This document shows positions 4,549 to 43,059 of a stretch of DNA of 47,563 nucleotides, piece by piece (positions within the stretch are counted from its first letter, which is position 1; each line of letters starts with the position of its first letter). The notes beneath the pieces were generated by a model, which did not search any database, was not told where the DNA came from, and worked only from the letters and a program-made list of their open reading frames with translations. A program made the position numbers and the translations under genes. The DNA is from a virus. The stretch covers positions 1 to 47,563 of IMG/VR virus record IMGVR_UViG_3300037245_000617. The stretch is one strand, 5' to 3'.

Positions 4549-6170
4549 ATCATTTCGTCCTCTCTATCCTCCGATTCAGTTCTGTATTCCTCACCAAAGT
4601 CCCCTTCGTGGAAGTCTGTAGCAAAAGCTTCAAAGGGGTCCTCAAACTGTACCTGTTGACCCTCAAGCTTATCGCTCCATTTCTGAAGAGGCCCACCAGT
4701 TGGTGGCTTCCATATCTCAGGGAAGTAATCGGCAAACGCCAGCATAAGTGCGTCAGCAAGGTCAGGAGACTTCAGACCGTCCCGCCTCATTTTCTCCTTA
4801 GACCAAATCGCTATCTTACCACTGGGGTTATGCTCGTACCGTATCGAACAAACTTGCTCTACAAACTTTACCATGTCGGGCCGGGAGAGGCTTTTCTTTA
4901 GCGGGGCCAAGGAAATGTTTCCATCCTCGAACCGCTTTCTTAGCTGCCAGAAATACTCAGCACGGAGGTTAGCGAACTTGTCTTTGTGTGTCGCTGCCCT
5001 TCCGACCTCTACGCCAGTAATGTTGTAACCCTGCTCTACCACACGATCTACAACGCCTGCCCCTACGCCAATCTCGTCAACCTTGATGTTGTTAGGCTCT
5101 ACAGCCCCACATAGGGCCACCACTTGTGCAGCCGTCTTCATGGTACTTTGCTTGGGGTACTGCTTTATCCCCATTACGGTGACTCCCTTGACCAGCACAA
5201 ATACTGTCTTGTTCTCACCGTAACGGGCAACGTCCACCCCGGCTGCGTCAAAGTTCTTATCTGATAAACGTTTAACAGGTGATGCCTGTCTCTCGAATGC
5301 TTCCATGACCCAGTCTTTAGGGATCAGCGTGAAGTCTGATTCAACCGGAAACTTACCCAGTACCCTAATCCGGTACATGTCGGAGTCTTCACCGAACTCA
5401 GTGGCTATCTCCCTTACAAATCGCTCACTAACACGGGGTGATACCTCACCGTTAAAGGTTAGGCAAAACCATGGGTCACCTTCCCAGAGACTGTGCGAGT
5501 TGTAGAAGAACCCGCTAGTCCTAGTTGGATTGGAGGTCATGACGCATCTATTATCTTCTTCAGTCAGCGCACCTCTAACAACTGTGAAAACTTCTTCGGC
5601 AACACCGGAAGCCTCGTCAATTATAAACAGTAGGTTCTCACCGTGAAAACCTTGTAATGCTTCAGGCTTCTCCGATCTTGCTGTACGGGCAACTGCAAAC
5701 CACGTCTTGTCATGTTCAACGTGATACATCTTGTCACTGGTTATCATGAACATGTCTTTGAAAAACTTATCCATCGCATTGTGCCATATTGATAGCTCTG
5801 CCCATAAGACGTTTTTAAGCTGCGCCTCAGTAGGGGCAGTACACGGTATACGAGCGTTTGGCCTAGTATAGTTCCACCACAGGATAGACCAGGCTAAAAA
5901 CGTAGTCTTGCCCGTACCGTGACCAGACTTAATTGAGACGTGCGTATCATTGGCTAGACCGTTAAGGGCCTGTATCTGTTGTTCCGTAGGCTCTGCCCCT
6001 ATCATCTCCCTTACGAAGGCAATAGGATCATCCCTGTACGGGTTCATCTTCCACCAATAATACTTCTCCGGATTCTGACGCTTCATCTCTTCTTCGATCA
6101 GCCCCAGTTCCAAGGAGTTTAGTGTCTCTAAGTTGTTTGGCTCTGTCTGCGAGTGCTTCAAATGGCACAT
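4539..6170 (-). CDS. terL: Terminase large subunit
   Basis: This is the ATP-driven DNA packaging motor with a headful or site-cutting nuclease. The N-terminal ATPase has Walker A SGHGTGKTT (about 82-90), Walker B LLFIIDEASG (about 177-186) and a coupling motif TSNPTR. The C-terminal RNase H-like nuclease shows AAGVDVARYG, VDEIGVGAGVVD and DLADALMLAF, which give the metal-binding acidic residues. Length (up to 543 aa) is normal. The start is uncertain: ATG 6170 has a weak site and gives a 143-base overlap with the upstream gene, while ATG 6086 (MKRQNPEKYY) would shorten the overlap but also lacks a clear site. Confidence 0.92.
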   Translation of the reverse strand: MCHLKHSQTEPNNLETLNSLELGLIEEEMKRQNPEKYYWWKMNPYRDDPIAFVREMIGAEPTEQQIQALNGLANDTHVSIKSGHGTGKTTFLAWSILWWNYTRPNARIPCTAPTEAQLKNVLWAELSIWHNAMDKFFKDMFMITSDKMYHVEHDKTWFAVARTARSEKPEALQGFHGENLLFIIDEASGVAEEVFTVVRGALTEEDNRCVMTSNPTRTSGFFYNSHSLWEGDPWFCLTFNGEVSPRVSERFVREIATEFGEDSDMYRIRVLGKFPVESDFTLIPKDWVMEAFERQASPVKRLSDKNFDAAGVDVARYGENKTVFVLVKGVTVMGIKQYPKQSTMKTAAQVVALCGAVEPNNIKVDEIGVGAGVVDRVVEQGYNITGVEVGRAATHKDKFANLRAEYFWQLRKRFEDGNISLAPLKKSLSRPDMVKFVEQVCSIRYEHNPSGKIAIWSKEKMRRDGLKSPDLADALMLAFADYFPEIWKPPTGGPLQKWSDKLEGQQVQFEDPFEAFATDFHEGDFGEEYRTESEDREDEMIWS

Positions 6171-16550: not shown

Positions 16551-16625
16551 TGGCAGGCATGGTAGGACTCGAACCCACATAATCTCCATTAACAGTGGAG
16601 CGCCTTACCCTTCGGCCACATGCCT
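16551..16625 (-). tRNA. tRNA-Asn (GTT)
   Basis: The cloverleaf has acceptor AGGCATG/CATGCCT, D arm GCC/GGC, anticodon arm CTCCA-CTGTTAA-TGGAG (anticodon GTT), T arm GTGGG-TTCGAGT-CCTAC and an encoded CCA. It is the most distal of six tRNA genes on this strand. Confidence 0.9.
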
Positions 16626-16749
16626 ATATGACTAGCTTGCATATAGGCTTATTACCGAATTGAGGGTGACGTAGCCTCAAGCCTGCTATCCCGCCACCCT
16701 TACTTGACCCCCACTTACCGCTGTCTCTTGTTTTACCTGTTGGTTTCAT
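16624..16749 (-). CDS. Small Gly/Lys-rich protein
   Basis: A 41-residue ORF starting at ATG 16749 behind CGGAGTGTAAC, the ribosome site used by many small genes of this phage. It reads MKPTGKTRDSGKWGSSKGGG followed by a basic hydrophobic end. It ends two bases into the tRNA-Asn gene. No family; real expression is plausible but unproved. Confidence 0.45.
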   Translation of the reverse strand: MKPTGKTRDSGKWGSSKGGGIAGLRLRHPQFGNKPICKLVI

Positions 16750-16800
16750 GTTACACTCCGCTCCTGACCTTGGTAGGTCTAACCTTATTAGGTCTTCGTT

Positions 16801-17010
16801 TCATGAGTATCTCTCCCTTTTGCGTTCCTCGACCTTAGCTCTCCGCTCCTGCTTCTTAGAGAGTCTGTTTGGCCGATACGTTTTGCAGCCGTTACATAAA
16901 CCTTTATCAATAGATATTTGAGGGACACACTTAGAGGGACATCTATCCCCGTGGATATTACCACACGGAGTGTCACTGCATGGTCCACAGTCTACGCCAC
17001 AACAAATCAT
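16801..17010 (-). CDS. Cys-rich basic mini-protein
   Basis: A 69-residue protein starting MICCGVDCGPCSDTPCG at ATG 17010, with GGAGG 6 bases upstream; a GTG at 17052 gives a longer but poorly initiated form. Nine cysteines could bind metal. The C-terminus is a Lys/Arg/Glu helix (KKQERRAKVEERKRERYS), likely RNA- or DNA-contacting. It lies inside the tRNA region. Confidence 0.6.
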   Translation of the reverse strand: MICCGVDCGPCSDTPCGNIHGDRCPSKCVPQISIDKGLCNGCKTYRPNRLSKKQERRAKVEERKRERYS

Positions 17011-17032
17011 CTTGGTCCTCCACCCTTTAGTT

Positions 17033-17104
17033 TCATCTCGTTGTACCTCCACCGATACCTGGTCTACCAGGGAACTGTACCCATTTATGAGGTCTGTATT
17101 TCAT
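17033..17104 (-). CDS. Tiny coupled ORF
   Basis: A 23-residue ORF (MKYRPHKWVQFPGRPGIGGG and three more) whose ATG shares a base with the upstream stop (TAATG), with GAGGG about 8 bases before. It overlaps a possible longer form of the next gene. It is too short for a firm call. Confidence 0.3.
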   Translation of the reverse strand: MKYRPHKWVQFPGRPGIGGGTTR

Positions 17105-17433
17105 TAGATGATCCCTCTGTCAGATAGGTACGAATAGGGAGTCTCAATAAGGTCCTCGTACATGCTGAGGTCTTCGTCGTCCTCGTCACCATCAAGCTCA
17201 ATCTCAAGAACCTGAGTGCTTCTGCCAGTGTCAACGATCTCTGTCTCCACAATACCCTTGGGCTGTGCAAACACTACGCCAAGCTTACTGTAAAGATACT
17301 TAAAAGATTCGAGGGGGGTCAGATCAGCAACCTCAGACTGTAAGAGCGTGAAGCTCTGCGTGGGACTGTCATGTCCTGTGAAAAGCAAAGTAAGGTCACC
17401 CAAGTCATTCATCGTAACATCCATTCTCTTCAT
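17104..17433 (-). CDS. Acidic hypothetical protein
   Basis: A 109-residue protein with GGAG before ATG 17433. The N-terminal half is beta-rich (DLTLLFTGHDSPTQSF) and the C-terminal half strongly acidic (LDGDEDDEDLSMYEDL). No known family. It lies between the tRNA cluster and the small Cys-rich gene. Confidence 0.6.
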   Translation of the reverse strand: MKRMDVTMNDLGDLTLLFTGHDSPTQSFTLLQSEVADLTPLESFKYLYSKLGVVFAQPKGIVETEIVDTGRSTQVLEIELDGDEDDEDLSMYEDLIETPYSYLSDRGII

Positions 17434-17456
17434 AGTAATCTCCTAATAAGTCGTTA

Positions 17457-17621
17457 TTATTTGTTAAGTCTCGTTGGTCCACCCACCCGTGTCGGACCTG
17501 GAACTTTCTTCCCGGCCTTCTTCCTCATGGCCTCAGCATGCTTGCGCTTGGCCTCTGCCACCTCAGCAGCTATTTCCTCTGCTGTGCGCTGGTCAGCAGG
17601 GTTGGTTGCGTATGTAGTCAT
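17457..17621 (-). CDS. Small helical basic protein
   Basis: A 54-residue protein starting MTTYATNPADQRTAEEIAAE at ATG 17621 behind GGAGAAGG. A longer frame reaches into tRNA-Thr and is rejected. It is one long Ala/Glu/Lys helix then a basic Pro/Gly tail (KKAGKKVPGPTRVGG). Function unknown. Confidence 0.55.
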   Translation of the reverse strand: MTTYATNPADQRTAEEIAAEVAEAKRKHAEAMRKKAGKKVPGPTRVGGPTRLNK

Positions 17622-17633
17622 ATCCTTCTCCTG

Positions 17634-17708
17634 TGGAGCCGTCAAGAGGAATCGAACCCCTGTCAAGGGCTTACAAGGCCCCCGCTCTGCCTGTTGAGCT
17701 ATAACGGC
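17634..17708 (-). tRNA. tRNA-Thr (TGT)
   Basis: The acceptor GCCGTTA/TGACGGC, anticodon arm GGGGC-CTTGTAA-GCCCT (anticodon TGT), T arm with GGTTCGATTC and encoded CCA are all present. Confidence 0.9.
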
Positions 17709-17744
17709 ATATATCATCCGTGGTGACTTCCGTGGTGACTTCCG

Positions 17745-17818
17745 TGGTAGCTCCAAATGGAATCGAACCAATGTCTGACGGTTATCAGCCGCCTGCTCTA
17801 CCGTTGAGCTATGGAGCT
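17745..17818 (-). tRNA. tRNA-Ile (GAT)
   Basis: The acceptor AGCTCCA/TGGAGCT, discriminator A and CCA are present. The anticodon arm GGCGG-CTGATAA-CCGTC gives anticodon GAT. A 12-bp tandem repeat (CGTGGTGACTTC, twice) lies between this gene and tRNA-Thr. Confidence 0.9.
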
Positions 17819-17820
17819 AA

Positions 17821-17896
17821 TGGAGTGCGGGGTGGGAATCGAACCCACGTCCTACGGGCCACAACCGTAGCGTAATTCCAATTATACTACCCTCAC
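17821..17896 (-). tRNA. tRNA-His (GTG)
   Basis: The anticodon arm TACGG-TTGTGGC-CCGTA gives anticodon GTG. The T arm GTGGG-TTCGATT-CCCAC and CCA are present. The acceptor GTGAGGG/CCCGCAC has one A-G mismatch at pair 4. Confidence 0.85.
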
Positions 17897-17897
17897 A

Positions 17898-17974
17898 TGG
17901 TCTGAGGGGTAGGATTTGAACCTACGGCCACTGGACTCCAAGACCAGTACGCTACCAGACTGCGCCACCCCCAG
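17898..17974 (-). tRNA. tRNA-Pro (TGG)
   Basis: The acceptor CTGGGGG/CCCTCAG starts with the C1-G72 pair typical of tRNA-Pro. The D arm GGCGCAGTCTGGTAGCG is Pro-like. The anticodon loop CTTGGAG gives TGG. CCA is encoded. Confidence 0.85.
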
Positions 17975-17976
17975 AT

Positions 17977-18063
17977 TGGTGGGGTAGCCTAGAGTCGAAC
18001 TAGGACGGCTCGTTGAGCGACTGGTTTACAGCCAGCCCCACAGCCATAGTGGTCTACTACCCC
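17977..18063 (-). tRNA. tRNA-Tyr (GTA)
   Basis: A class II tRNA of 87 bases with a long variable arm. The acceptor is GGGGTAG/CTACCCC and the anticodon arm CTGG-CTGTAAA-CCAG gives anticodon GTA; CCA is encoded. It is the first tRNA after the promoter at 18203-18175. Confidence 0.9.
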
Positions 18064-18692: not shown

Positions 18693-19144
18693 ACGATTGA
18701 GCCTTGAGTTTGGCTCGAACGGCCCTGGCAGCGAGAACGGCTGACCACGGACTGGAAAACACCTCAACCGCAGCCGAAGCACGGCAAACCTGACTCCGCT
18801 CCCCAGTAGGCAGTATGCAGGAGCGCAACGTCCCCCGGTAGCGATCCACTTGCACAAGCACGGCAAAGTCGAGTGGCTTGCAGCCTGGGACCAGGCAACC
18901 AGAGTGAAGGGCCAGAGCCAAGGTGAAGACAAGCAGGCAGAGATCAATACAAAGGCAGGGAAGGCGGGGCCGCAAGGCTTATGCTGGACTAGCATCGCTA
19001 GACTAGCTCACCGTGGACCTAGGTGGATACAGAGCCACTGTTAAGACCTTTGGGATAAACTGCCGCCAATTCCTTTTCTCTCCATCCTAAGCATCCAACT
19101 AGGTCCATAAACGTGCAACCATCAACGATCTAGGAGGGTTTACC

Positions 19145-19408
19145 ATGGCAACAGTAAAGGCAGAGGCACATGCGGCAAAGATTGACTTTTCCAAGACCAA
19201 GTATGCAGCCGTAACCGCTGGAAGGGCCAGGGCTAAGGCTTCAGGGCTGACCAAGGACTACGACGTGGCGGTCTGTATCATGGTCGAGCTTGACAAAGCT
19301 GGACTGAAAATAGTCCGTAAGCCCAGCAAGGACGGCCTTCGAGAGTTTGGCAGACGGGTAGGCAGTGACAATGTGACCGTGGCAGGCATGCGTGAGGCCA
19401 GCAAGTAA
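19145..19408 (+). CDS. Hypothetical protein, first gene of the MoxR operon
   Basis: An 87-residue basic, Ala-rich protein behind a strong AGGAGG site. Mixed helix-strand, with many Lys and Arg (AGRARAKASGLTKD; GLREFGRRVG), so it may bind nucleic acid. A 7-bp hairpin, ACCAGGC/GCCTGGT at 19415-19434, follows its stop. No family recognised. Confidence 0.65.
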   Translation: MATVKAEAHAAKIDFSKTKYAAVTAGRARAKASGLTKDYDVAVCIMVELDKAGLKIVRKPSKDGLREFGRRVGSDNVTVAGMREASK

Positions 19409-19414
19409 GAAAGG

Positions 19415-19434
19415 ACCAGGCTTGTGGGCCTGGT
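19415..19434 (+). other. Intergenic hairpin
   Basis: ACCAGGC and GCCTGGT form a perfect 7-bp stem with a 6-base loop. No T-run follows, so this is not a standard terminator. It may be an mRNA stability or processing element. Confidence 0.5.
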
Positions 19435-19481
19435 TGGACGCTTAGAAATGTAATGAATACACCAACATAGGAGAGAGAATT

Positions 19482-20525
19482 ATGAGTGCAAGAAGGAAGA
19501 TTAAATCAGCAAAGAGCATTCCCTCGTTGACTCCAGCGAAGATGCTAAAGACACTGATAACGGCCTTCGAGAACCGTTTGCAGCTTTTACTGGTTGGCTC
19601 TCCCGGTGTAGGGAAGACTGAGCTAGTTCTGGCAGCGGCTAAATTCTTGGGCTACAACGTGATAATTATGCACCCGGTTGTCTCTGATCCTACTGACTTC
19701 AAGGGTTTACCGTGTTTGGTGGATGGTCAAGCAGTATTCTTGCCGTTCAAAGAATTGCAAGAGATGATTGACGCAAAGACCCCAACCATAGTGTTCTTGG
19801 ACGATCTAGGGCAAGCTTCGGCAGCGGTTCAGGCCGCTGTAATGCAGCTAATCTTAGGCAAGCGGATCAATGGTCATCACCTCAGTGACAATATCATCTT
19901 TGTCGGTGCTACCAACAGACGAGAGGACATGGCAGCGGTTCAGGGCATCCTCGAACCAGTCAAGTCCCGGTGGCATTCGATAGTTGGGCTGGAAGTGGAC
20001 GTGGAAGCATGGTTGACTTGGGCCGAAGATAACGGCATCAACGCCTATGTCAGAGCCTTTATAGCTAGACGACCAACGCTTCTACACGCTTTTGAGCCAT
20101 CCCAGGACATGGTGAATACTCCAAGTCCCAGGACGGTGGTCAACGCTTCAAGGATCATTGACGCTAATTTTGACCCCGATGTCCGTAGAGCCTTGATAGC
20201 AGGGAGTGTGGGAGAGGGCTGGGCTACTGAATACCTGGCTTTCATCGACATGGTTGACCGCATGATAGACCCCAACGTAGTCATCCAAGCACCGAAAGAC
20301 GTAGACGTACCAAAGGATCACGACGTTTTGTATGTCCTTTCGTTGGCTTTAGCTGACCGTGCCACCGATGCAAACTTCAATAATATCATGGTGTTTGTCA
20401 ATCGGATGGAAGAGCGAGAGTTCCAAAAGCTCCTGGTCAGTGTAGCTACCAGACGTGATGAAAACCTAAAGAATACCACTGGTTACATCACCTGGGCGAC
20501 TGCTAATCCGGAGCTTCATAACTAA
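19482..20525 (+). CDS. MoxR/CobS-like AAA+ ATPase
   Basis: A 347-residue AAA+ ATPase with Walker A VGSPGVGKTE (about 39-48), a pore-facing region, Walker B TIVFLDDLGQ (about 107-116) and sensor 1 FVGATN (about 148-153). MoxR-type ATPases form hexamers that remodel or load metal into protein partners, typically with a VWA-domain protein (as CobS with CobT, or RavA with ViaA). The VWA partner is encoded two genes downstream (21662-23116). CobS-like ATPases are known in cyanophages. The target here is unknown. Confidence 0.85.
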   Translation: MSARRKIKSAKSIPSLTPAKMLKTLITAFENRLQLLLVGSPGVGKTELVLAAAKFLGYNVIIMHPVVSDPTDFKGLPCLVDGQAVFLPFKELQEMIDAKTPTIVFLDDLGQASAAVQAAVMQLILGKRINGHHLSDNIIFVGATNRREDMAAVQGILEPVKSRWHSIVGLEVDVEAWLTWAEDNGINAYVRAFIARRPTLLHAFEPSQDMVNTPSPRTVVNASRIIDANFDPDVRRALIAGSVGEGWATEYLAFIDMVDRMIDPNVVIQAPKDVDVPKDHDVLYVLSLALADRATDANFNNIMVFVNRMEEREFQKLLVSVATRRDENLKNTTGYITWATANPELHN

Positions 20526-20535
20526 AACCCTTCTT

Positions 20536-20651
20536 CGATACCTCAACCCTAAAGCGAGTCAACGCTAGACGGCCATGCAGGGCGGGTCTAGCTGGGCTGC
20601 AAACCTAAGTGGAGGGGCCGGGTAACCGGATAAACAAAATTGAGGTATTCG
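20536..20651 (+). ncRNA. Predicted structured RNA between ATPase and partner gene
   Basis: ATACCTCAA (20538-20546) pairs with TTGAGGTAT (20640-20648), extended by a CG/CG pair around a one-base bulge, closing a domain of about 115 bases. Inside lie CTAGAC/GTCTAG and CCGG-GTAA-CCGG, the latter with a GNRA tetraloop. There is no T-run, so it is not a terminator. It is likely an mRNA-borne control element. Confidence 0.5.
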
Positions 20652-20703
20652 TAGGATGGTAATTAGTTTAACAATAATAACTACATAGAGAGAAGGAGGG
20701 AAC

Positions 20704-21576
20704 ATGATTATCAAGACCGATATTCGTGAAAAGGCAATGACAGTGCAGTTTAACAGCAAGTGCTGGACTGCCAGGAAGTTTGACAAAGCTGCCACCCAGA
20801 AACACAACGTGGATCAGGGCGCAGACAAGGACGCTTCAAGGATCAACAAGCTTTTGATCCCCAAGAGCATCATTGACGGCCCGGTCAAAGCTAGGCAGCA
20901 TGCCCAGCACAAGATTCATGACGTATTCACCAGTAAGTGGGCCAGCAGAGGCGTAAACATCCTGAAGGCAACGGTCTACGAGGAATACGCTACCCTGATG
21001 TCATCGGCTGAAGAGGCTTTCTGGCAAGCGGTGGAAGTGTTCATGACCCGCTATCAGCTATTCTACGACAATCTCTGGGAAAAAGGACCTGAGAGAATGG
21101 GTGGAATGTATGACCGTGATGACTACCCAAGTCCCCAGGAAGTCAAGTCAAAGTTCACTTTCAAGGTCCACTATGCCCCGATCACTCATTCTTCTGATTG
21201 GCGCATAGGCGGGTTGGCGGCTGACGAGACAAAAAAGCTGGCGGCTGCAGTGGCTGAAAGGGAACGTGAGCTACTGGCGGGTGCCATGAAGTCAGTCTGG
21301 GAGCGGCTTCACAAGGTTGTTAGCAAGGTTGTGGAGGTGCTTGGAACGGCTGACGCAATCTTTAGGGACTCGCTAATTGGGAACGTGATTGACCTCTGCA
21401 GCATCTTGCCGGACCTCAACCTGGAGGATGATCCCCAGCTAGAGGACCTGAGGAAAGAGGTCGAGCGGTCCATTGGCTCCCTGGACCCCGCAATGCTTCG
21501 AGAGGACCCCGAAGGACGCAAGCGGGTTGCCGAAGATACCAAGGAAATACTGGACAAGATAGGAGGTTATTTCTAG
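20704..21576 (+). CDS. Helical partner protein of the MoxR/VWA system
   Basis: A 290-residue protein with a strong GGAGG site. It is mostly helical: a basic N-terminus, a middle segment with YPSPQEVKSKFTFKVHYAPI, and long coiled-coil-like helices (about 185-260). Its place between the ATPase and the HExxH/VWA protein fits the third component of such operons; in other phages and prophages this slot is often a DUF3150-type protein, but I cannot confirm that family. It may be a substrate adaptor. Confidence 0.6.
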   Translation: MIIKTDIREKAMTVQFNSKCWTARKFDKAATQKHNVDQGADKDASRINKLLIPKSIIDGPVKARQHAQHKIHDVFTSKWASRGVNILKATVYEEYATLMSSAEEAFWQAVEVFMTRYQLFYDNLWEKGPERMGGMYDRDDYPSPQEVKSKFTFKVHYAPITHSSDWRIGGLAADETKKLAAAVAERERELLAGAMKSVWERLHKVVSKVVEVLGTADAIFRDSLIGNVIDLCSILPDLNLEDDPQLEDLRKEVERSIGSLDPAMLREDPEGRKRVAEDTKEILDKIGGYF

Positions 21577-21661
21577 TATCAAATTGAGGGCTAGAGTGGC
21601 GACTAGCCTTCATCTGGATACTACTGAAACAACTGATAAACACTTAACAGGAGTTGGTATT

Positions 21662-23116
21662 ATGAAATGCGAAGCGACTAAAGCTATGGAAAACGCCCGT
21701 GCAGGGCTAGTTTCCAGGCATCCGTCTCTTGGTTTCCTTAGCTTCAAGCTGAAGTGGTTTCCTGATTCGACGACTCCAACGGCTTGGTGCGACGGTGTAA
21801 GCGTAGGCTTTAATCCGGAGTTTGTTCTCAGCCTAACCAAGGCAGAGCGCAGGTTTCTGGCCGCTCACGAAGTGGGGCATCCGATGTTAGGCCACCACCT
21901 CCGAAGAGGGGACCGGAACCCGAAACAGTGGAATGTAGCTTGTGACCATGTGGTCAACCTGATCCTTCAGGGTCAAGGGTTTACAGCGATCAAGGATACT
22001 TTTTGCGACTACCAGTTTAAAGGAATGGCAGTTGAGCAAGTATTTGCGATCCTATTCCCCCCCGGTCAAGAGAATGAGGACCAGGACCAGGATTCAACAG
22101 AGAGCGGTCAAGGAGGCGATTCTAGCCCTCAGGACGACGAAGAGGCATCAGGGGGTCAGGAAGGCCAGGAAGACGGCTCAGGGGACGAAGGAGGTGGCTC
22201 AGATGACACTGGAGACGCAGAGGGCGATCAAGGCGATTCAGGAGGCAGCGGAAGCGGACTTCCGGATCAGTCAGAGAGTGCTGGCGAGGCTGCTGGGGCT
22301 GGAAAGCCAAGTGGCAAAGCTGATGAAGAGGCTGGAGAAGGTGGAGGGTCAGGTGAAGAGGCCCCACGAAGCAGCACTGAGGCCGGGAGCGATCCTGTAG
22401 ACTACAGCCAACCAGGTGAGGTGAGAGACTACCCAGGTGAGGCCCCAGAGGACTTCGAGGCTGAGGCAGAGAAGTGGGACATAGCAGTTCAGCAGGCGGC
22501 TCAGATGGAGCGCAGACTGAGTCCTGAAGGCAATCTACCAGGGTTTGTTGAGACAATTCTCGACAACATCAGTGATCCAAAGCTGCCATGGCAAGAGATT
22601 CTTTCCAGGTGGCTGTCAAGTAAGGCCAAGAACGACTATAGCTGGACAAGGCCGAACCCCAGGTACTCAGCAACCGGGTTTATCCTGCCAGTGCTTGAGA
22701 GTTTTGAGTTAGGCCGGGTGTCGATCTTCTGGGATACTTCATGCTCAGTAACAGACGACCAGGTGGCCGATATTGGCTCAGAGACTCAAGGAATCTTAGC
22801 CCACTTTCCCGGTGTACTGATAGACCTTTATCACATAGATACTAAGGTCCAGTACATAGAGGAATTAGACCTTAACACGGACTGGGATCAGATAACCGCA
22901 AGAGGTAGAGGCGGGACTGACTTCAGACCAGGGTTTGAGGCTATCGAAGACAGTGAGGAAGAGTACCCGGTGGGAGTAATTTACATGACTGACGGTGAAT
23001 GCTCCAAGTTTCCGGAGCCGCCAAGTTACCCGGTGCTTTGGATTGTGGTTGACATGCCACAAGACTTCCGCTTCGATCCTCCATTCGGTGAGGTGGCATA
23101 CTACAACGACTTCTAA
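21662..23116 (+). CDS. HExxH metallopeptidase-like / VWA-domain protein (DUF2201-like)
   Basis: A 484-residue protein starting at ATG 21662 behind AGGAG. Residues 1-120 look like a metallopeptidase-type domain with AAHEVGHPMLGHH (HExxH plus a further His). About 130-270 is an acidic Gly/Ser/Glu/Asp linker of low complexity. About 300-484 is a VWA domain with a complete MIDAS: DTSCS, GGTDF and MTDGE. This layout matches the VWA partners of MoxR ATPases and recalls CobT, which also has an acidic linker. It presumably works with the ATPase at 19482. It could cleave or remodel a host target. Confidence 0.8.
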   Translation: MKCEATKAMENARAGLVSRHPSLGFLSFKLKWFPDSTTPTAWCDGVSVGFNPEFVLSLTKAERRFLAAHEVGHPMLGHHLRRGDRNPKQWNVACDHVVNLILQGQGFTAIKDTFCDYQFKGMAVEQVFAILFPPGQENEDQDQDSTESGQGGDSSPQDDEEASGGQEGQEDGSGDEGGGSDDTGDAEGDQGDSGGSGSGLPDQSESAGEAAGAGKPSGKADEEAGEGGGSGEEAPRSSTEAGSDPVDYSQPGEVRDYPGEAPEDFEAEAEKWDIAVQQAAQMERRLSPEGNLPGFVETILDNISDPKLPWQEILSRWLSSKAKNDYSWTRPNPRYSATGFILPVLESFELGRVSIFWDTSCSVTDDQVADIGSETQGILAHFPGVLIDLYHIDTKVQYIEELDLNTDWDQITARGRGGTDFRPGFEAIEDSEEEYPVGVIYMTDGECSKFPEPPSYPVLWIVVDMPQDFRFDPPFGEVAYYNDF

Positions 23117-23164
23117 GAAACTTCTAACAGGACGCAGTGCAAGGCTAGGACTTTCAAGGAGAGA

Positions 23165-23238
23165 GGTTGATGTTTGAAGGTGATAGGGTGGAGGACCATG
23201 GTCCTTGTGGAACCACTCTTGATCCTTGAACCATTAAC
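23165..23238 (+). repeat. Conserved hairpin element, copy A
   Basis: The lower arms GGTTGATG-TTTGAAGG and CCTTGAAC-CATTAACT pair imperfectly. They are followed by an internal loop TGAT/TGAT (tandem G-A) and an upper helix AGGGTGG/CCACTCT. Copies B and C keep the arms and the G-A loop but have other, still paired, upper helices. Confidence 0.75.
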
Positions 23239-23241
23239 TAC

Positions 23242-23331
23242 CTGGGGGAGTTAGCCCGAAAGCACTGGACGCAGTGTGAATGCTCCGATGGAGCGGTCCT
23301 ACAGTAGGGCGGCAGGCTGACAAATCCCCTG
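23242..23331 (+). ncRNA. Predicted multibranched RNA domain
   Basis: GTTAGCC (23250-23256) pairs with GGCTGAC (23315-23321), with a flanking GGGG/CCCC, and encloses three hairpins. These are CACTG-GACG-CAGTG (23263-23276), GCTCC-GAT-GGAGC (23282-23294) and GTCCTA-CAG-TAGGGC (23296-23310). The domain sits between hairpin copies A and B in a 300-base gap. Confidence 0.55.
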
Positions 23332-23338
23332 CAAAGGA

Positions 23339-23403
23339 GGTTGGTGTTTGAAGGTGAAGGCCATTTTAGCCCGATGAATGGCCCGATCCTTGAACCATTA
23401 ACC
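23339..23403 (+). repeat. Conserved hairpin element, copy B
   Basis: The arms GGTTGGTG-TTTGAAGG and CCTTGAAC-CATTAACC enclose TGAA/CGAT (tandem G-A kept) and the perfect upper helix GGCCATT/AATGGCC. It ends 15 bases before the GTG of 23418 and just before its ribosome site. Confidence 0.75.
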
Positions 23404-23417
23404 AAGGAGGTGGTAAG

Positions 23418-23705
23418 GTGCCAAACAGAATGACGTTTGAGAGTTGGCAAAAGGCCGATAAAGAGGCCAGGGAAACTGCCATAATGCCTACTGCCATGAC
23501 AATGCTGGAAGTCTGGGATAGCGGTGATACCAGCATTTTACCTGGTAAGTACCCAGTGGCAGAAGTTTATGTCGGTCATGACGAGGTGGTATTGCTTGAT
23601 GTTCGGTACTATCTTACCCTTGACGGCTTTGTGCCTGGTCCGGTGGTCCTATCATACAAGGAAGTGATGGGCCTAGTGGGACTGGGACTGGCCGACTACA
23701 GCTAA
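23418..23705 (+). CDS. Hypothetical protein
   Basis: A 95-residue protein starting at GTG 23418, 7 bases after GGAGG; an ATG four codons later is the other option. It is beta-rich in the second half (EVYVGHDEVVLLDVRYYLT). No family recognised. Translation probably depends on hairpin copy B just upstream. Confidence 0.65.
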   Translation: MPNRMTFESWQKADKEARETAIMPTAMTMLEVWDSGDTSILPGKYPVAEVYVGHDEVVLLDVRYYLTLDGFVPGPVVLSYKEVMGLVGLGLADYS

Positions 23706-23717
23706 GGAGGTGGCGTA

Positions 23718-24122
23718 ATGCCGAAGACCTTTACCCAAAGGTACGACGAGGCGCTGGCTACGGAGAGGCAGCGGCCCGGTAAGTCAGATGATAGGTATTT
23801 CGAGAAGTATCAGTACGGCATAGGATCAAGTAAGCAGCACAAAGAGGCAATGGATTATATCTACAATCGTGTAGAAGACAGTGACGAGCCGGGGGTTCAC
23901 CTGGCATTTGAAGAGACTCAGAGCATCATGCTAGACATTGAGGACGAAGAGGTGAGGTGCCAAAAGTGCAAGCGTGGCATAGAGGTGTACTACGAGGCAG
24001 TCTTCGTGGTTGGTATCTATGTCAACGACGAGAAGAAAGGCCAAGAGTTTTGGTGTAAACAGTGCGCTGTAAAAGGCATGAAGTGGAGCAACAAGCATCC
24101 ACTATTGAAAGGAGATTTTTAA
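23718..24122 (+). CDS. Zinc-ribbon-containing hypothetical protein
   Basis: A 134-residue protein with AAGGAGG before its ATG. The N-terminal half is helical and charged. The C-terminal half has CQKC and CKQC about 30 residues apart, a likely zinc ribbon around a beta sheet (EVYYEAVFVVGIYV). The stop overlaps the next start (TAATG). Confidence 0.65.
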   Translation: MPKTFTQRYDEALATERQRPGKSDDRYFEKYQYGIGSSKQHKEAMDYIYNRVEDSDEPGVHLAFEETQSIMLDIEDEEVRCQKCKRGIEVYYEAVFVVGIYVNDEKKGQEFWCKQCAVKGMKWSNKHPLLKGDF

Positions 24123-24457
24123 TGAGGGATTTGGCATGGATCAAGGCAGCAAACAAGGTTGCCGTTGAGGATTACGAGGCGGCTAATGCGGAGGAAGACA
24201 AGGTGGAGAAAATCGTTGACGAGGTAACAGCGGTCCATGAGCGCATGGAGAGGGCTGCAAAGCAGATTTCCAGCTTGTGGCGCTATATCGTCATCGACGG
24301 TGAGGGCAACACTCAGAAAAATCCACTGATGGGCCAGGACGATGTCTTCCGGATGTTTCCGGAGATCAACCCCAGGTGGTTCGAGAACTTCGGTATCGTG
24401 GAGCTTACCATTAGGCAGAAAAACGGAACCCAGTTGATTCTCAAGAAAGTGAGGTAA
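24122..24457 (+). CDS. Helical hypothetical protein
   Basis: A 111-residue protein starting MRDLAWIKAANK at ATG 24122, coupled to the previous stop. The first 65 residues are a charged coiled coil and the rest is alpha/beta (FGIVELTIRQKNGTQLIL). No known family. Confidence 0.6.
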   Translation: MRDLAWIKAANKVAVEDYEAANAEEDKVEKIVDEVTAVHERMERAAKQISSLWRYIVIDGEGNTQKNPLMGQDDVFRMFPEINPRWFENFGIVELTIRQKNGTQLILKKVR

Positions 24458-24459
24458 AC

Positions 24460-24624
24460 ATGAATTGTCCGAACCCAGGTTGTGACGGTAAGCTGAGAAA
24501 TATCTTCTACAACCTTTTCAGTGACGAGTCAGGGGCCAACGTGGAAGCTTCCTGCACTAGCTGTACCAGGAATTTCGTAGTGCAGATAAGCGAAACGGAT
24601 TTTGTCGATCAGGCCGATCTGTAG
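24460..24624 (+). CDS. Zinc-ribbon mini-protein
   Basis: A 54-residue ORF (MNCPNPGCDGKLRN...) with CPNPGC and CTSC, a clear zinc-ribbon spacing. Its stop codon lies at the very first base of hairpin copy C, so the hairpin is the immediate 3' end of this frame. GAGG precedes the ATG. Confidence 0.65.
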   Translation: MNCPNPGCDGKLRNIFYNLFSDESGANVEASCTSCTRNFVVQISETDFVDQADL

Positions 24625-24715
24625 GTTGGTGTTTGAAGGTGATAGGAAGGGGTCTGCGTGACAATGCGTATGGGCTTAGGCCCAGTGGCCTTCCTTGATC
24701 CTTGAACCATTAACC
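24624..24715 (+). repeat. Conserved hairpin element, copy C
   Basis: The arms GGTTGGTG-TTTGAAGG and CCTTGAAC-CATTAACC, the TGAT/TGAT loop and the perfect upper helix AGGAAGG/CCTTCCT are present. The long apical part contains GGGC-TTAG-GCCC. It precedes the 24736 gene. Confidence 0.75.
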
Positions 24716-24735
24716 CGAACAGGAGGTTGTGTAGT

Positions 24736-24954
24736 ATGGACGATAGGGTTGTGAAGACATGCCCAAGGTGTAACGGTGACAGGGGTTTCTGGCGGGACAG
24801 TAGCAAACATTGTACTGGGACCTGGCATCCCTGCATAACCTGTAAGACCATTGGCAAGGTAAAGGTTTCCAGCATGGCAGAGTTTAGGCGGCTGGAACGC
24901 ATGGTAGCGAACCCCAGCAAGGCAACCACAAAACAACGTGAGAAGGAGAAATAG
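24736..24954 (+). CDS. DnaJ-type zinc-finger small protein
   Basis: A 72-residue protein starting at ATG 24736 behind AGGAGG. It has CPRCNGDRG and CITCKTIGK, the halves of a DnaJ-like zinc centre, then a basic helical tail (ATTKQREKEK). It follows hairpin copy C. Function unknown. Confidence 0.65.
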   Translation: MDDRVVKTCPRCNGDRGFWRDSSKHCTGTWHPCITCKTIGKVKVSSMAEFRRLERMVANPSKATTKQREKEK

Positions 24955-24956
24955 AT

Positions 24957-25139
24957 ATGCCAACCGAAGTTTGCAGCATCTGTAAATGCACGTTGACTAT
25001 CAGGGTCTGCAAGAGTGCCGCAGGCTACTACCTGGGGTTCATCTGCCCCAAGGACGGCCCATACAGCAGGGCAACTGGCTACTACGCCACTGAGGGAGAA
25101 GCTAAGGAGGTCCTAAGCGCCTGGTTAGGAGGTGGCTAG
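24957..25139 (+). CDS. Zinc-ribbon mini-protein
   Basis: A 60-residue protein with CSIC and, further on, CKSA and CPKDGP, consistent with a treble clef. The end (EAKEVLSAWLGGG) is helical. It starts two bases after the previous stop and shares a base with the next start. Confidence 0.6.
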   Translation: MPTEVCSICKCTLTIRVCKSAAGYYLGFICPKDGPYSRATGYYATEGEAKEVLSAWLGGG

Positions 25140-25219
25140 TGGAGGACTTCCTTTATAATGGATGGAGGGTCCTGGTTGTGATCCTGGTCCTCCTGAATCT
25201 CACACGGTTCATCTACTGA
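25139..25219 (+). CDS. Single-span membrane micro-protein
   Basis: A 26-residue ORF starting at GTG 25139, with GGAGG 7 bases upstream and one base shared with the previous stop. It is almost entirely one membrane helix (WRVLVVILVLLNLTRF). Similar micro-membrane proteins recur in this genome. Confidence 0.45.
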   Translation: MEDFLYNGWRVLVVILVLLNLTRFIY

Positions 25220-25233
25220 TGGAGGTTTATCAC

Positions 25234-25389
25234 ATGCCAACAGGAATCTATAAACCGATAACTGACGAAGGTATTTACGCTGAATTGATGCGTTTTCACC
25301 ATGAGACTGACGTTGACATGGACGACATAGACTGGAAGGAGGGTTGGAATCTTGAAGAAGAATTACAGCTTCGACGTTTTGTCGGATAG
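25234..25389 (+). CDS. Small acidic protein
   Basis: A 51-residue protein starting MPTGIYKPITDEGIYAEL at ATG 25234 behind GGAGG. It is acidic and helical (HHETDVDMDDIDWKEGW). It overlaps the next small gene by 38 bases in another frame. No family. Confidence 0.5.
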   Translation: MPTGIYKPITDEGIYAELMRFHHETDVDMDDIDWKEGWNLEEELQLRRFVG

Positions 25390-25516
25390 GGTTTGCTTGG
25401 AGCCGGGTTGTAGCAAGAGGATCAAACAGCGCCTGGTGGAAAGCAAGGATGTGAGGCTCTGCTACGAGCATGAGCCGAAACGGAACATCTCAGGACACAG
25501 CAAAAGGAGTCGGTAG
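25352..25516 (+). CDS. Cys-containing basic mini-protein
   Basis: A 54-residue ORF starting at TTG 25352, 8 bases after GGAGGG. It has CLEPGC and a later C-Y-E-H, a plausible zinc site, and a basic end (KRNISGHSKRSR). One base separates its stop from the next ATG. TTG start and overlap make this moderately sure. Confidence 0.45.
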   Translation: MKKNYSFDVLSDRVCLEPGCSKRIKQRLVESKDVRLCYEHEPKRNISGHSKRSR

Positions 25517-25517
25517 T

Positions 25518-25880
25518 ATGAATGATGTAACTTTTAGGACTGGGTGGCACCAGTTTGGTGTGATGGTTCTCGCCTACGTTGTCGGATTGATTGCAACTTT
25601 TGCTCTGCTGGTCATTGGCAGGGCAGGAGGGGCAAGCGATCAGGGTACCTTTATCCTGGCAAACATAGGGCTGAGGATCACATGTGGATGGATAGGGCTT
25701 AACCTGGCCCGGTGGAAGAACAACGGGGCTGAGGTTGGGATGACCATACTAGGTGCAATCTTTGGATGGTTTGCTATCGCTGGCTATGCTCTCTTCAGTG
25801 ATAAGAAGGTGAAGGCGGTAGACGTAGTGGTTGAGCAGATTGACCTATACCTGGAACCAGAGTGGAAGGAGGATAAATAA
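25518..25880 (+). CDS. Membrane protein, three spans
   Basis: A 120-residue protein starting at ATG 25518 behind AGGAG. Hydrophobic spans lie at about 12-34, 45-63 and 72-93 (VMVLAYVVGLIATFALLVIG; TILGAIFGWFAIAGYALF), followed by a charged cytoplasmic tail. It is the last gene before the terminator. A holin-like or membrane-anchoring role is possible but not shown. Confidence 0.65.
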   Translation: MNDVTFRTGWHQFGVMVLAYVVGLIATFALLVIGRAGGASDQGTFILANIGLRITCGWIGLNLARWKNNGAEVGMTILGAIFGWFAIAGYALFSDKKVKAVDVVVEQIDLYLEPEWKEDK

Positions 25881-28227: not shown

Positions 28228-29099
28228 TACTTCTTCTCCTTGTAAGTGTTTATTATTTGTTCTCGTAACTTATCAAAATCCCAGCGTTTCATGTCGGGGT
28301 CACTCTGGTACCTCATATTCAGCCTGCGTATCTCTAAGGCCATTTCCTCCTTCCTGTTTTGCTCTGGGGAAACCTTCAAATCTTCCCATCTCTCTCTGTT
28401 AAGCCAAGGTCCAGCACCCGGCAGATATTTGTTCTCTGAGGCATCTTTGAATACCCCAGCCATGTCAATTTTCAAGGCTACTAGAATCTGGTCGGGAGAA
28501 ACCGTCTTGATGTGTTTATCCCAAGCCTTCCTAGCTGCCTTTTTACTGTCGCCCTTCTTTGGGTATTTTTCCCAGAAGGTCATGAAGTTCTTATCATCTA
28601 TATTGTCTTTACCGTATGTTTCTTTCTTTCTTTCTTTCTTTAGGCGCTGTACTTCCTCTGATGTCTTGACTTTAGGAGCGTTCTTGTAGTCTGTACTGAC
28701 TATAGTTGTAGTCTGTACTGACTCACTTTTGAGTCTGTCCTGACTATATAGTCTGTCCTGACTATGTAGTCTATACTGACTACACTTACTCCACTTGTCA
28801 AAGTGTTTGTTAAATCCGATCATCCCTTTCTTCCTCTTGACGACTTTCTTCCTTAGAAGGTTATTCTTAACCCGGTTGATGTTCGCTCTTGAGATTCCAG
28901 TACGTCGATGCCACTCCGCATTGATCCAAGGTGTCCACTGACCGTCCTGTCCCTGCATATTCTTTCGACCATAGGTGAGTCTCCAGAGGACCATAATGAA
29001 CTGCCACTCATTGGGAGAGAGCCTAGCAAAGGCCATACCCTCAATCACCTCATGGAAGAGTTGGATATGTGGGTCCTTAGTCTTTCGGGGGTTAGCCAC
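28227..29099 (-). CDS. Replication initiator, phage replication protein O-like
   Basis: A 290-residue protein starting at GTG 29099, 8 bases after GGGAG. The N-terminal 95 residues (LSPNEWQFIMVLWRLTYGRK; RTGISRANINRVKNNLLRKK) form the winged helix of the Phage_rep_O family, which binds origin iterons. A repeated linker (SQYRLHSQDRLYSQDRLKSE) is encoded by the iterons themselves at 28687-28782, as in lambda O. The C-terminal half (FMTFWEKYPKKGDSKKAARK) is the helicase-loader-contacting type often seen in such initiators. It should load the DnaB-like helicase. Confidence 0.8.
   Translation of the reverse strand: MANPRKTKDPHIQLFHEVIEGMAFARLSPNEWQFIMVLWRLTYGRKNMQGQDGQWTPWINAEWHRRTGISRANINRVKNNLLRKKVVKRKKGMIGFNKHFDKWSKCSQYRLHSQDRLYSQDRLKSESVQTTTIVSTDYKNAPKVKTSEEVQRLKKERKKETYGKDNIDDKNFMTFWEKYPKKGDSKKAARKAWDKHIKTVSPDQILVALKIDMAGVFKDASENKYLPGAGPWLNRERWEDLKVSPEQNRKEEMALEIRRLNMRYQSDPDMKRWDFDKLREQIINTYKEKK
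28619..28645 (+). other. Pyrimidine/AT-rich tract next to iterons
   Basis: About five TTTC repeats in the O-like gene lie 42 bases from the iteron array. An easily melted tract next to iterons is the usual place for strand opening at O-type origins. It also encodes a Lys/Glu run, so coding need could explain it. Confidence 0.4.
28687..28782. repeat. Five iterons: probable replication origin
   Basis: There are five copies of TAGTCTGTMCTGACTA, each with TAGTC/GACTA dyad symmetry, starting at 28687, 28709, 28731, 28749 and 28767. Start-to-start spacing is 22, 22, 18 and 18 bp. They lie inside the O-like initiator gene. Confidence 0.8.
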
Positions 29100-35766: not shown

Positions 35767-36667
35767 TGATGGGGTTCTAATCGAATACACGAAGTGCCTC
35801 TCCGTGAGGGGCTGTCGCCTCGGCCAACGATGTGCGACACTACCTTATTTAAGGAACGCCTGTAAGGACAGGAAGTGGAAGGCTGTCACTCCCTCTCAGG
35901 CATTTAATGGGCCAAGACACATTTACTTAAAGGAGGTGTGTGATTATGCGGAAGACCCGCATGATAAGGCTTTTGCAATCCTGGGAACAGGATCACATGA
36001 CAGATTATCTGTTCACTACCTTGTTAAAGGATTCGTTGCAGAGCAGAAGTTTTCAGATGAAGTTATCTCAGGCATACCGGACATCGTCGAACCAGACGAA
36101 GAAAATGTGGGATTCTATTTACTCTATGACTATAAAACCAGCGGAAGCTTTAAAGTGGCCCTGGCACTTGGTCTGGAAAAATCCTCAGAAGAGGTTCTGG
36201 ATGATGATGGCAATTTCATCTACTTCAAGACGGGTAAAAACAAAGGCAAGCCCAAAACCCGTGCCTGCTTCGTACCTAACCGTGCTAAAGCGATCCCTGA
36301 AATCCTTGACTGGACTTATCAAATGAATAGGTACCGTATACTGGTAGAGGGGGCTGGGTTCCCCATCTCTAGGATGATCACTCAGTGTATCCCAAGAGAC
36401 GGTAACACATACATAGCACAGAACCGGGGGGTAGACAAGAACGTGATCCTCGTTGACATCCCTCGAATGGATGATGATAAGTGTTTATCACACTATGCCA
36501 AGCTTCAGGCTGAGATAATGGAAGCATTTAAGACCTTCAATCCTCGTATATGTAATAAGAAGGAAAGCTGGGATGGTAGGAAATGTCCTAAATACTGTCC
36601 CGTGGTCGAGCAGTGTAGGCAGATGGAAAAAGACGGACGTATCTTCAAATTTAAGGAGGCAGCATGA
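35738..36667 (+). CDS. Cas4/RecB-like PD-(D/E)XK nuclease with Cys cluster
   Basis: A 309-residue protein starting MPLKWFKCPSDG at ATG 35738 behind AAGGAGAGG. The core shows GTGSHDRLSVHYL, EVISGIPDIVE and LLYDYKTSGS, matching the D...DxK site of RecB/Cas4-type exonucleases. Cysteines near the N-terminus (CPSDG, CLSVRGCRLGQRC) and at the C-terminus (RKCPKYCPVVEQC) could hold an iron-sulphur cluster, as in Cas4 and AddB. A recombination or end-processing exonuclease is likely. No CRISPR array was seen. Confidence 0.75.
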   Translation: MPLKWFKCPSDGVLIEYTKCLSVRGCRLGQRCATLPYLRNACKDRKWKAVTPSQAFNGPRHIYLKEVCDYAEDPHDKAFAILGTGSHDRLSVHYLVKGFVAEQKFSDEVISGIPDIVEPDEENVGFYLLYDYKTSGSFKVALALGLEKSSEEVLDDDGNFIYFKTGKNKGKPKTRACFVPNRAKAIPEILDWTYQMNRYRILVEGAGFPISRMITQCIPRDGNTYIAQNRGVDKNVILVDIPRMDDDKCLSHYAKLQAEIMEAFKTFNPRICNKKESWDGRKCPKYCPVVEQCRQMEKDGRIFKFKEAA

Positions 36668-40660: not shown

Positions 40661-40832
40661 GCTGAGGTCAGAGGGTGAACTCTACTTTTACTGCTCCTGT
40701 GACCGATCCGCAAAGGTCGAGGAAAAAATGCCCTTGACAATGAGGTGTTTCTGTGGTAAGCTCATGATTGTAATGGACGAGCTTGATCTGCCTTTCATAC
40801 CAGAGGCTACTCTAAAACTGGGGGTAATATGA
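40578..40832 (+). CDS. Zinc-ribbon hypothetical protein
   Basis: An 84-residue protein starting at ATG 40578 behind AAGGAG. Basic N-terminus, then a CSC/CFC ribbon (YFYCSCDRSAK; RCFCGKLM). GTGA/ATGA-like overlap couples it to the RlaP-like gene. Function unknown. Confidence 0.6.
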   Translation: MSQDGGKKLATKQHPKGRLSGYHYFMDRLRSEGELYFYCSCDRSAKVEEKMPLTMRCFCGKLMIVMDELDLPFIPEATLKLGVI

Positions 40833-41860
40833 ACGTCATAGTCGAGATGAAGTTTGGGAGCCACCTTTATGGGACGGACACTCCGGAATCGGATCATGAC
40901 TTCAAAGGTGTGTTCCTTCCAGAGGCTGAAAGTCTCATACTGGGGCCAGCTTTTAAGGGGTCCTATGCCAAGAGCATCAATACCAATACCAATGCCTCGG
41001 ACGGGAAGAACACCAGCCAGGATGTGGACCGGGAGTTCTACTCACTCCACTACTTCCTGAAGTTAGCTCTTGAGGGCCAAACAGTTGCCCTGGACATGCT
41101 CCACGCCCCGCAATCGGCTATTTTAAAGAGTAGTCACCTGTGGGATGTACTGGTGGAGCAGCGATCCAGGTTTTACACCAAGAACCTGAAGACTTTCATT
41201 GGGTACGCTCGTAGGCAGGCTGCTAAGTACGGTATTAAGGGTAGCCGCCTAGCTGAGGTCCGGATGGTTGCCAGGTTTCTTGAGAAAACCATGCACAGGA
41301 CCAAGTGGAACGAAGACCTGAAACTCCGTGATGTGTGGGACTGGCTACCGAAGGGTGAGCATATCTACTTCCACTCTGGTGCCAGCGACAAGCAGGACAG
41401 TATGTCCCTAAAGATGTACGAGGTGGTCGGGAAGAAGTTTCAGGAGACTGCCAGAATCAGCTACGTCCTCCCGATCCTGCTCCGCTTCATAACTGAGTAC
41501 GGACTGAGGGCGCAGAAGGCTGAACAAAACGAGGGAGTTGACTGGAAGGCTCTGAGTCACGCTCTAAGGGCTGCGTATCAGATCAAGGAACTGTTCCTTG
41601 ACGGTACTATGACCTTGCCCCTGCCACAAGCTGGCCTCATATTGGCTGTGAAACAGGGTAGGATAGGCTTCAAGTCAGTACAGGCAGAACTGGAACAAAC
41701 CATGTCTGAGGTTGAGGAACTGGCTCTCAGGTCTGAGTTACCTGAAAAGGCCGACCACAAGTTTGTCAGGCACCTTCTCCTGTACGCCTACGACCTTCTT
41801 CCGGACGGTAGTAAGATAAATTCACTTCATGAGGCCAAATTGCTCAGAGAGGGGTTCTAG
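40829..41860 (+). CDS. RlaP-like nucleotidyltransferase (RNA repair)
   Basis: A 343-residue protein of the DNA polymerase beta superfamily. The N-terminus has FGSHLYGTDTPESDHDFKGV: Gly10-Ser11 and the metal-binding Asp22-x-Asp24. The helical C-terminal part fits the predicted nucleotidyltransferases found beside RNA ligases (RlaP, PF10127-type). They are thought to act on RNA ends in repair. An RNA ligase lies 1.2 kb downstream in the same operon, which supports the call. The exact reaction is not established. Confidence 0.75.
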   Translation: MNVIVEMKFGSHLYGTDTPESDHDFKGVFLPEAESLILGPAFKGSYAKSINTNTNASDGKNTSQDVDREFYSLHYFLKLALEGQTVALDMLHAPQSAILKSSHLWDVLVEQRSRFYTKNLKTFIGYARRQAAKYGIKGSRLAEVRMVARFLEKTMHRTKWNEDLKLRDVWDWLPKGEHIYFHSGASDKQDSMSLKMYEVVGKKFQETARISYVLPILLRFITEYGLRAQKAEQNEGVDWKALSHALRAAYQIKELFLDGTMTLPLPQAGLILAVKQGRIGFKSVQAELEQTMSEVEELALRSELPEKADHKFVRHLLLYAYDLLPDGSKINSLHEAKLLREGF

Positions 41861-42571: not shown

Positions 42572-43059
42572 TTTTCACCGAAGACACAATGACTGACATA
42601 TTCTATATTCTGGAACTTAGTATAGGTGTTCCCCAGATGGAGGAACATCATCCAGAAGGTGATGTCTTTAATCACCTGATGCAGACGTATTTCTGGGGTC
42701 TGAGAGAGTCTAGCGACACTGACCTGATCCTGGCTGCGCTTCTCCACGACGTTGGGAAAGCCTGCTTAGAGCTTGACCATGTTACTCAGAGTGTCGAGAT
42801 GATCAGGCCGTATGTAAGCCCCAAGACAGAGTGGCTAGTCTCACAGCACATGAGGGTTTGGGCGCTGATAAAGGGTGATATGAGACGGCCCGGTAAGGTT
42901 AAGACGCTGGCATCTCACGTCTGGTTTGCTGACCTGGTCCTGCTGGCTAGGTGGGATCACATGGCCCGTAATCCCAGGAAGAAAGTCACTTATGATAAGG
43001 ATAGGATTATGGATCAACTTAACAGAAGAGGAATGGAGAATTACAAATGGCAGAAGTAA
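42568..43059 (+). CDS. HD-domain phosphohydrolase
   Basis: A 163-residue protein with FNHLMQT (His36), ALLHDVGK (His60-Asp61) and later acidic and His residues (WFADLVLLARWDH), the metal site of the HD superfamily. The core resembles the HD domain fused to bacterial CCA-adding enzymes, which removes 2',3'-cyclic phosphate. In this block, between RlaP-like and RNA ligase genes, an end-healing role on RNA is a reasonable inference. It overlaps the ligase by 13 bases. Confidence 0.7.
   Translation: MIFTEDTMTDIFYILELSIGVPQMEEHHPEGDVFNHLMQTYFWGLRESSDTDLILAALLHDVGKACLELDHVTQSVEMIRPYVSPKTEWLVSQHMRVWALIKGDMRRPGKVKTLASHVWFADLVLLARWDHMARNPRKKVTYDKDRIMDQLNRRGMENYKWQK

Follow-up and report, generated by a model that had tools for sequence, protein, structure and literature searches.

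The stretch of DNA analysed here, referred to as the window, is a 47.6-kb virus record that contains genes for a portal protein, a terminase, a replication initiator, a DnaB-like helicase, an integrase and an RNA ligase as well as six tRNA genes, and it probably represents a tailed, temperate phage. A plus-strand operon in the window includes genes for a MoxR-type AAA ATPase (19482-20525) and a DUF2201 protein (21662-23116; metallopeptidase-like plus VWA-like, hereafter VWA). Three copies of an imperfect hairpin are located in this operon on the same strand, i.e., copy A (23165-23239) with the VWA gene directly upstream, copy B (23339-23403) and copy C (24624-24715). Each copy lies at a gene junction, as an earlier note on this DNA had described; however, A and B share the junction between the VWA gene and the gene starting at 23418, and the copies thus occupy two junctions. 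The non-coding spacer between A and B (23240-23338, plus strand) is predicted to adopt a multi-branched fold (z -2.8) in which a closing stem carries three hairpins, and a search for relatives of this spacer found none. The decamer GGACGCAGTG occurs at about 23130-23140, before copy A, and again at 23268-23277, after it, perhaps as the trace of a local duplication. Copy B is followed directly by the ribosome site AAGGAGG (23404-23410) with a GTG start at 23418 (together 23404-23420), and copy C is followed by AGGAGG (24721-24726) with an ATG start at 24736 (together 24721-24738), bearing out the earlier placement of two copies just before a ribosome site. Four small plus-strand genes (23418-23705, 23718-24122, 24122-24457 and 24460-24624) separate B from C; the first base of copy C is the last base of the stop codon of its upstream gene, and a plus-strand gene for a small cysteine-rich protein (24736-24954) is located downstream.

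Sequence and coordinates of the three copies and their common arms were confirmed, and each copy folds as one hairpin with a size of about 65-92 nt. The start of copy A stands at 23165, while its end shifts from 23238 to 23239 to take in the outermost pair. The arms are located at 23165-23180/23224-23239 in A, 23339-23354/23388-23403 in B and 24624-24639/24700-24715 in C. From the base, they form a lower stem consisting of an 8-bp outer helix, a conserved YUUG/GAAC stretch and a 4-bp helix (AAGG/CCUU), which is interrupted by two conserved mismatches, U.C (C.C in the related phage described below) and G.G. On top of this stem lies an internal loop (23181-23184/23220-23223 in A; TGAA 23355-23358/CGAT 23384-23387 in B; TGAT 24640-24643/TGAT 24696-24699 in C). 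In each copy this loop is a symmetric 4x4 loop of the form UGAW/NGAU that can form U.U, G.A, A.G and one variable pair; the G-A/A-G core is kept in all three, as the note had it. Above the loop follow a variable helix of 7 bp or longer (AGGGTGG 23185-23191/CCACTCT 23213-23219 in A; GGCCATT 23359-23365/AATGGCC 23377-23383 in B; AGGAAGG 24644-24650/CCTTCCT 24689-24695 in C) and a variable apex.

The copies are confined to this operon. The window contains the 3' arm CCTTGAACCATTAAC three times and no more, and the 5' arm GGTTGRTGTTTGAAGGTGA three times with at most one mismatch, where 0.02 occurrences are expected at up to 3 mismatches. A scan by structure only (at least 12 of 16 lower pairs, an NGAN/NGAN loop and a 7-bp upper helix) of about 0.87 Mb of related sequence returned, as strongly folding matches with 14 lower pairs, only the three copies and one homologue, and none in shuffled sequence. 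Further copies were searched for elsewhere in the window phage and in the related phage, and none were found. An Rfam search of the window identified tRNAs only; the best match within 23100-24760 had an E-value of 7, below the gathering threshold.

The homologue is present in IMGVR_UViG_3300022206_000004, the one contig beyond the window's own record in which a scan of IMG/VR recovered the exact 3' arm. The encoded proteins of this related phage are 83% (MoxR), 57% (VWA) and 74% (terminase) identical to those of the window. It has a single copy, located a few bases past the VWA stop codon and ahead of the next ribosome site, with AAGGAGGTGGTAAG, the counterpart of the ribosome site of copy B, kept after the hairpin; in both phages, the copies are placed between stop codons and ribosome sites. 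A covariance model built from the three window copies alone, the check that the note had proposed, finds this copy with 64.9 bits and an E-value of 8.8e-16, which is rough because calibrations were short. The note had named as counterevidence either a lack of homologues or homologues in which the arms are kept and upper pairing is lost; the copy found has both the arms and the upper pairing. Between the two phages, 37 of 38 consensus arm positions are identical, the sole change being U to C in the U.C mismatch. The neighbouring genes share about 71-76% DNA identity, and the probability of such an arm match is about 3e-4 at 75.6% identity and 6e-5 at 72%. A diverged homologue with intact arms and kept upper pairing supports the proposed selection on RNA structure.

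The upper helices had been described as compensated. Pairing is indeed kept: in the four cores, all 84 cells are paired, six of the seven upper-helix pairs are changed on both sides, and the covariation score was reached by none of 500 shuffles, although these are four sequences from two phages and the cells are not independent events. Compensation at the level of single substitutions is seen only between copy C and its homologue in the related phage. The A and B apices do not align with each other, that of B aligns with none, and that of A aligns only marginally with that of C. Because no homology is detectable between the A and B apices, most of the apparent compensation is modular replacement. 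By contrast, the apices of C and of the related-phage copy are homologous (0 of 1000 shuffles) and differ by one full compensatory change (A-U/G-C) and two changes to G-U, with no broken pair. As only two phages carry the element, the word compensated rests on few independent events. The G-to-A change in the arm that turns a G-U into an A-U pair is present, but it is weaker evidence for structure than claimed because the same change swaps ATG for GTG.

Two lines of evidence favour a sense-mRNA element rather than a DNA site. First, the predicted fold energies of plus-strand RNA are -29.7, -27.8 and -43.1 kcal/mol for A, B and C (z -2.3, -3.3 and -3.5) and -35.7 kcal/mol for the related-phage copy, compared to -19.3, -18.7, -30.8 and -20.9 kcal/mol, in the same order, for minus-strand RNA. 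Second, single-stranded DNA folds weakly (plus-strand z -0.95 and -1.5 for the two copies tested). The large advantage of sense RNA over antisense RNA and DNA stems from G-U pairs, which form in plus-strand RNA only: one is invariant in the lower stem, where a second position is A-U or G-U, and others occur in the upper helices of A and the related-phage copy. With a nearly invariant base and a tip that varies yet stays paired, the hairpin very probably works as folded messenger RNA.

We give about even credence to a model in which the copies are a cis-acting intercistronic hairpin family in the sense mRNA that is bound by a putative trans factor, most likely for processing or stability. The sense-strand structure, the near-invariance of the arms across phages, the kept pairing and the intercistronic placement are directly supported by the comparison. 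To these, the model adds a trans factor, a role in processing or stability and an action on neighbouring genes, all of which we infer. The three copies would act as one family on the polycistronic transcript, at junctions near the MoxR and VWA genes. A trans-acting factor for double-stranded RNA, e.g., an RNase III-type nuclease of the host or an RNA-binding protein, would most likely recognise the lower stem together with its fixed mismatches and tandem G-A loop, while the upper stem and apex would serve as an interchangeable cap with pairing as the sole requirement. A lower stem that is near-invariant even at unpaired positions, together with a free apex, would be the mark of a sequence- and shape-specific RNA-binding factor. 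Binding or cleavage at the hairpin would separate upstream and downstream messages and stabilise them differently, and could free the ribosome site 3' of copies B and C. Genes for RNase III, L7Ae and Nop proteins were sought in the phages and not detected, and the factor would therefore have to come from the host or be a phage protein that escaped recognition.

Phage T7, T3 and lambda have RNase III hairpins with long stems and internal loops, which are intercistronic, number several per phage and adjoin ribosome sites. RNase III sites usually do not demand such strict sequence identity as is found here. The present hairpins resemble these in being intercistronic and several per phage; they differ in that the lower stem is near-invariant, the tandem G-A loop is symmetric and the apex is swapped, and in that cleavage is putative. 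The sense transcript of each hairpin contains about 27 stacked layers, with the symmetric mismatches and the loop counted in, and this reaches the two turns or so of stacked double-stranded RNA that an RNase III substrate has. A long stacked stem located between genes and close to ribosome sites would suit a role in which segments of the operon message are processed or stabilised, as RNase III does in T7 and lambda. Transcripts of lambda, T7 and T3 are cited as RNase III targets in PMC5371410. Position alone proves little since hairpins after genes are common in related phages: a strong hairpin follows 20% of VWA gene ends versus 17% of other ends (P 0.81), and a VWA-specific post-gene hairpin is thus not enriched.

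The proximity of ribosome sites also makes it possible, if doubtful, that the element is a translational control site at which downstream translation is set without cleavage, either by a protein of phage or host origin or by the hairpin as such. B, C and the related-phage copy lie 0-12 bases ahead of a ribosome site, and conserved non-canonical loops such as those seen here are typical of protein binding, e.g., in the Rev response element. However, what follows copy A is 100 bases of a different structure rather than a ribosome site, none of the copies has the ribosome site within its stem, and no candidate repressor is known.

Comparison of the two phages indicates that copies have moved or recombined. 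The copy in the related phage follows the VWA gene, the place of A in the window, although its apex resembles that of C. The 24736-24954 gene is kept in the related phage with no hairpin copy in front of it, the 24460-24624 gene is missing there, and of the four small genes between B and C only 24122-24457 has a counterpart at that place. Gene content therefore differs just after B and just before C, and these changes, together with a C-like apex at a different junction, indicate duplication, loss or exchange of copies, events that arms of identical sequence would promote. We consider it unlikely that spreading or recombination is itself the reason for the repeat, with the arms acting as short homologous joints or ends of a mobile hairpin, phage genes being shuffled and the RNA structure being secondary. 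The shared apex at different junctions, the shifts in gene content and the missing copy before the 24736 homologue speak for this explanation. Yet neither phage has copies elsewhere, there is no clear target-site duplication, and 50,697 phage records and 72,556 plasmids contain no significant match. AAGGAGGT flanks B and the related-phage copy on both sides, but it resembles a ribosome site and is missing at A and C. Spreading also leaves unexplained why pairing is kept via G-U changes that are useful in sense RNA only. A stronger reading that we advance only tentatively is a new phage RNA module in which an invariant recognition stem and swappable apical caps moved between junctions as a unit, and in which a putative dedicated RNA-binding or RNA-cutting factor would set the expression of single genes within the operon.

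A role as an antitermination or pausing RNA acting on RNA polymerase, comparable to the put RNA of HK022, is improbable. Like put, which occurs in two related copies, the element is a small structured phage RNA for which action in cis is proposed; several structured units of about 65-92 nt lie in a long operon, and no plus-strand terminator-like site is present within 19000-25600. However, put RNA has two stem-loops per unit and lies downstream of early promoters (PMC9378689), whereas each unit here has one stem, is intercistronic and lacks, directly upstream, a promoter-like site of the sigma-70 type, the promoter class that the scan covered. It is still harder to believe that the 5' arm encodes a leader reading frame, RTG YTT GAA GGT GAW (M-F/L-E-G-D/E), whose translation opens the stem: each of the four copies retains an ATG or GTG and three have an SD-like AAGGAG in front, but copy C has no SD, the frames run for about 10 to 29 codons into unrelated peptides with stops at differing places, and the copies differ in the frame used across the 3' arm, so that the lack of conserved frames and stops makes a leader peptide unlikely.

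Readings of the element as coding sequence, terminator, operator, attC site, kink-turn or TIGR array, or Rfam family fail or lack support. Tandem G-A motifs of the SECIS and kink-turn type have the order U.U, G.A, A.G, N.N, which the 4x4 loop shares; however, the three-base bulge of a kink-turn is absent, the loop being symmetric in four of four copies, and no L7Ae-family protein was found. The integron attC consensus has outer boxes RYYYAAC ... GTTRRRY and extrahelical bases. With attC, the element shares an imperfect hairpin, constant arms, a variable centre and location at gene junctions, but its outer boxes are GTT..AAC, the reverse of AAC..GTT, its mismatches are symmetric with no extrahelical bases, and the DNA fold is weak. 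TIGR-Tas stem-loop arrays are likewise hairpins repeated in phage genomes (PMC12045711), but three phage contigs gave no match to the Nop domain (PF01798) while controls were positive, and no dual spacers were seen. No terminator-like site is present at any copy; the arms end in CATTAAC with no T run.

In IMG/VR, pattern scans with the 3' arm, both inner arms and the 5' arm gave the related phage as the sole true match; 13 and 38 further matches are chance and do not form the structure. Scans with the MoxR, VWA and terminase proteins recovered a third close contig (G002), which ends inside MoxR. Besides two weak fragments, there are 15 terminase-bearing records, of which 14 were searched, and the 13 other than G002 show no MoxR; these close relatives are fragments, mostly without the region, and absence of the element cannot be judged from them. 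Among 47 MoxR loci collected, 45 are from distant relatives (39-60% identity). The element is absent from 36 such records searched whole and from the distant-relative loci covered by the structure scan and the model; the model gave one weak match (22 bits) among them, which falls within a gene for an HNH endonuclease and fails to fold. BLAST of 50,697 INPHARED phage records and 72,556 PLSDB plasmids gave no significant match, scans of genome contigs with the terminase and the VWA protein found no prophage, and the literature searched, which dealt with structured phage RNAs, boundary sequences and the RNase III sites of T7, gave no description of the element. The element is either narrow in range or sampled in one phage group only. 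It is a real multi-copy hairpin at the RNA level that is new to Rfam and of a kind already known, the phage intercistronic hairpin; at present, it constitutes a small candidate RNA family of two uncultured phages. If confirmed, it would be a compact multi-copy RNA recognition element outside Rfam and could lead to a new phage or host RNA-binding factor. Its natural variants would then separate the kept parts (lower stem, mismatches and tandem G-A loop) from the free apex and make the recognition rule easy to test.

Other elements were observed in the window. The motif TGATAAACnnTTATCA has 31 matches on both strands at up to 3 mismatches versus 3.5 expected (e.g., 5262-5277, 21634-21649 and 36475-36490), some of them just before ribosome sites, and is enriched in the related phage too. 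It resembles a repressor operator or leader motif in dispersed copies, and even with 3 mismatches allowed none of its matches overlaps a copy of the hairpin. Genes for an RlaP-like nucleotidyltransferase and the RNA ligase (40829-41860 and 43047-44171) and the six tRNA genes, at 16551-18060, form a possible tRNA repair set. Finally, five tandem iteron-like repeats of 18-22 nt (TGTAGTCTGTACTGACTATAGTT) at 28685-28787, inside the replication initiator gene, are a candidate origin.
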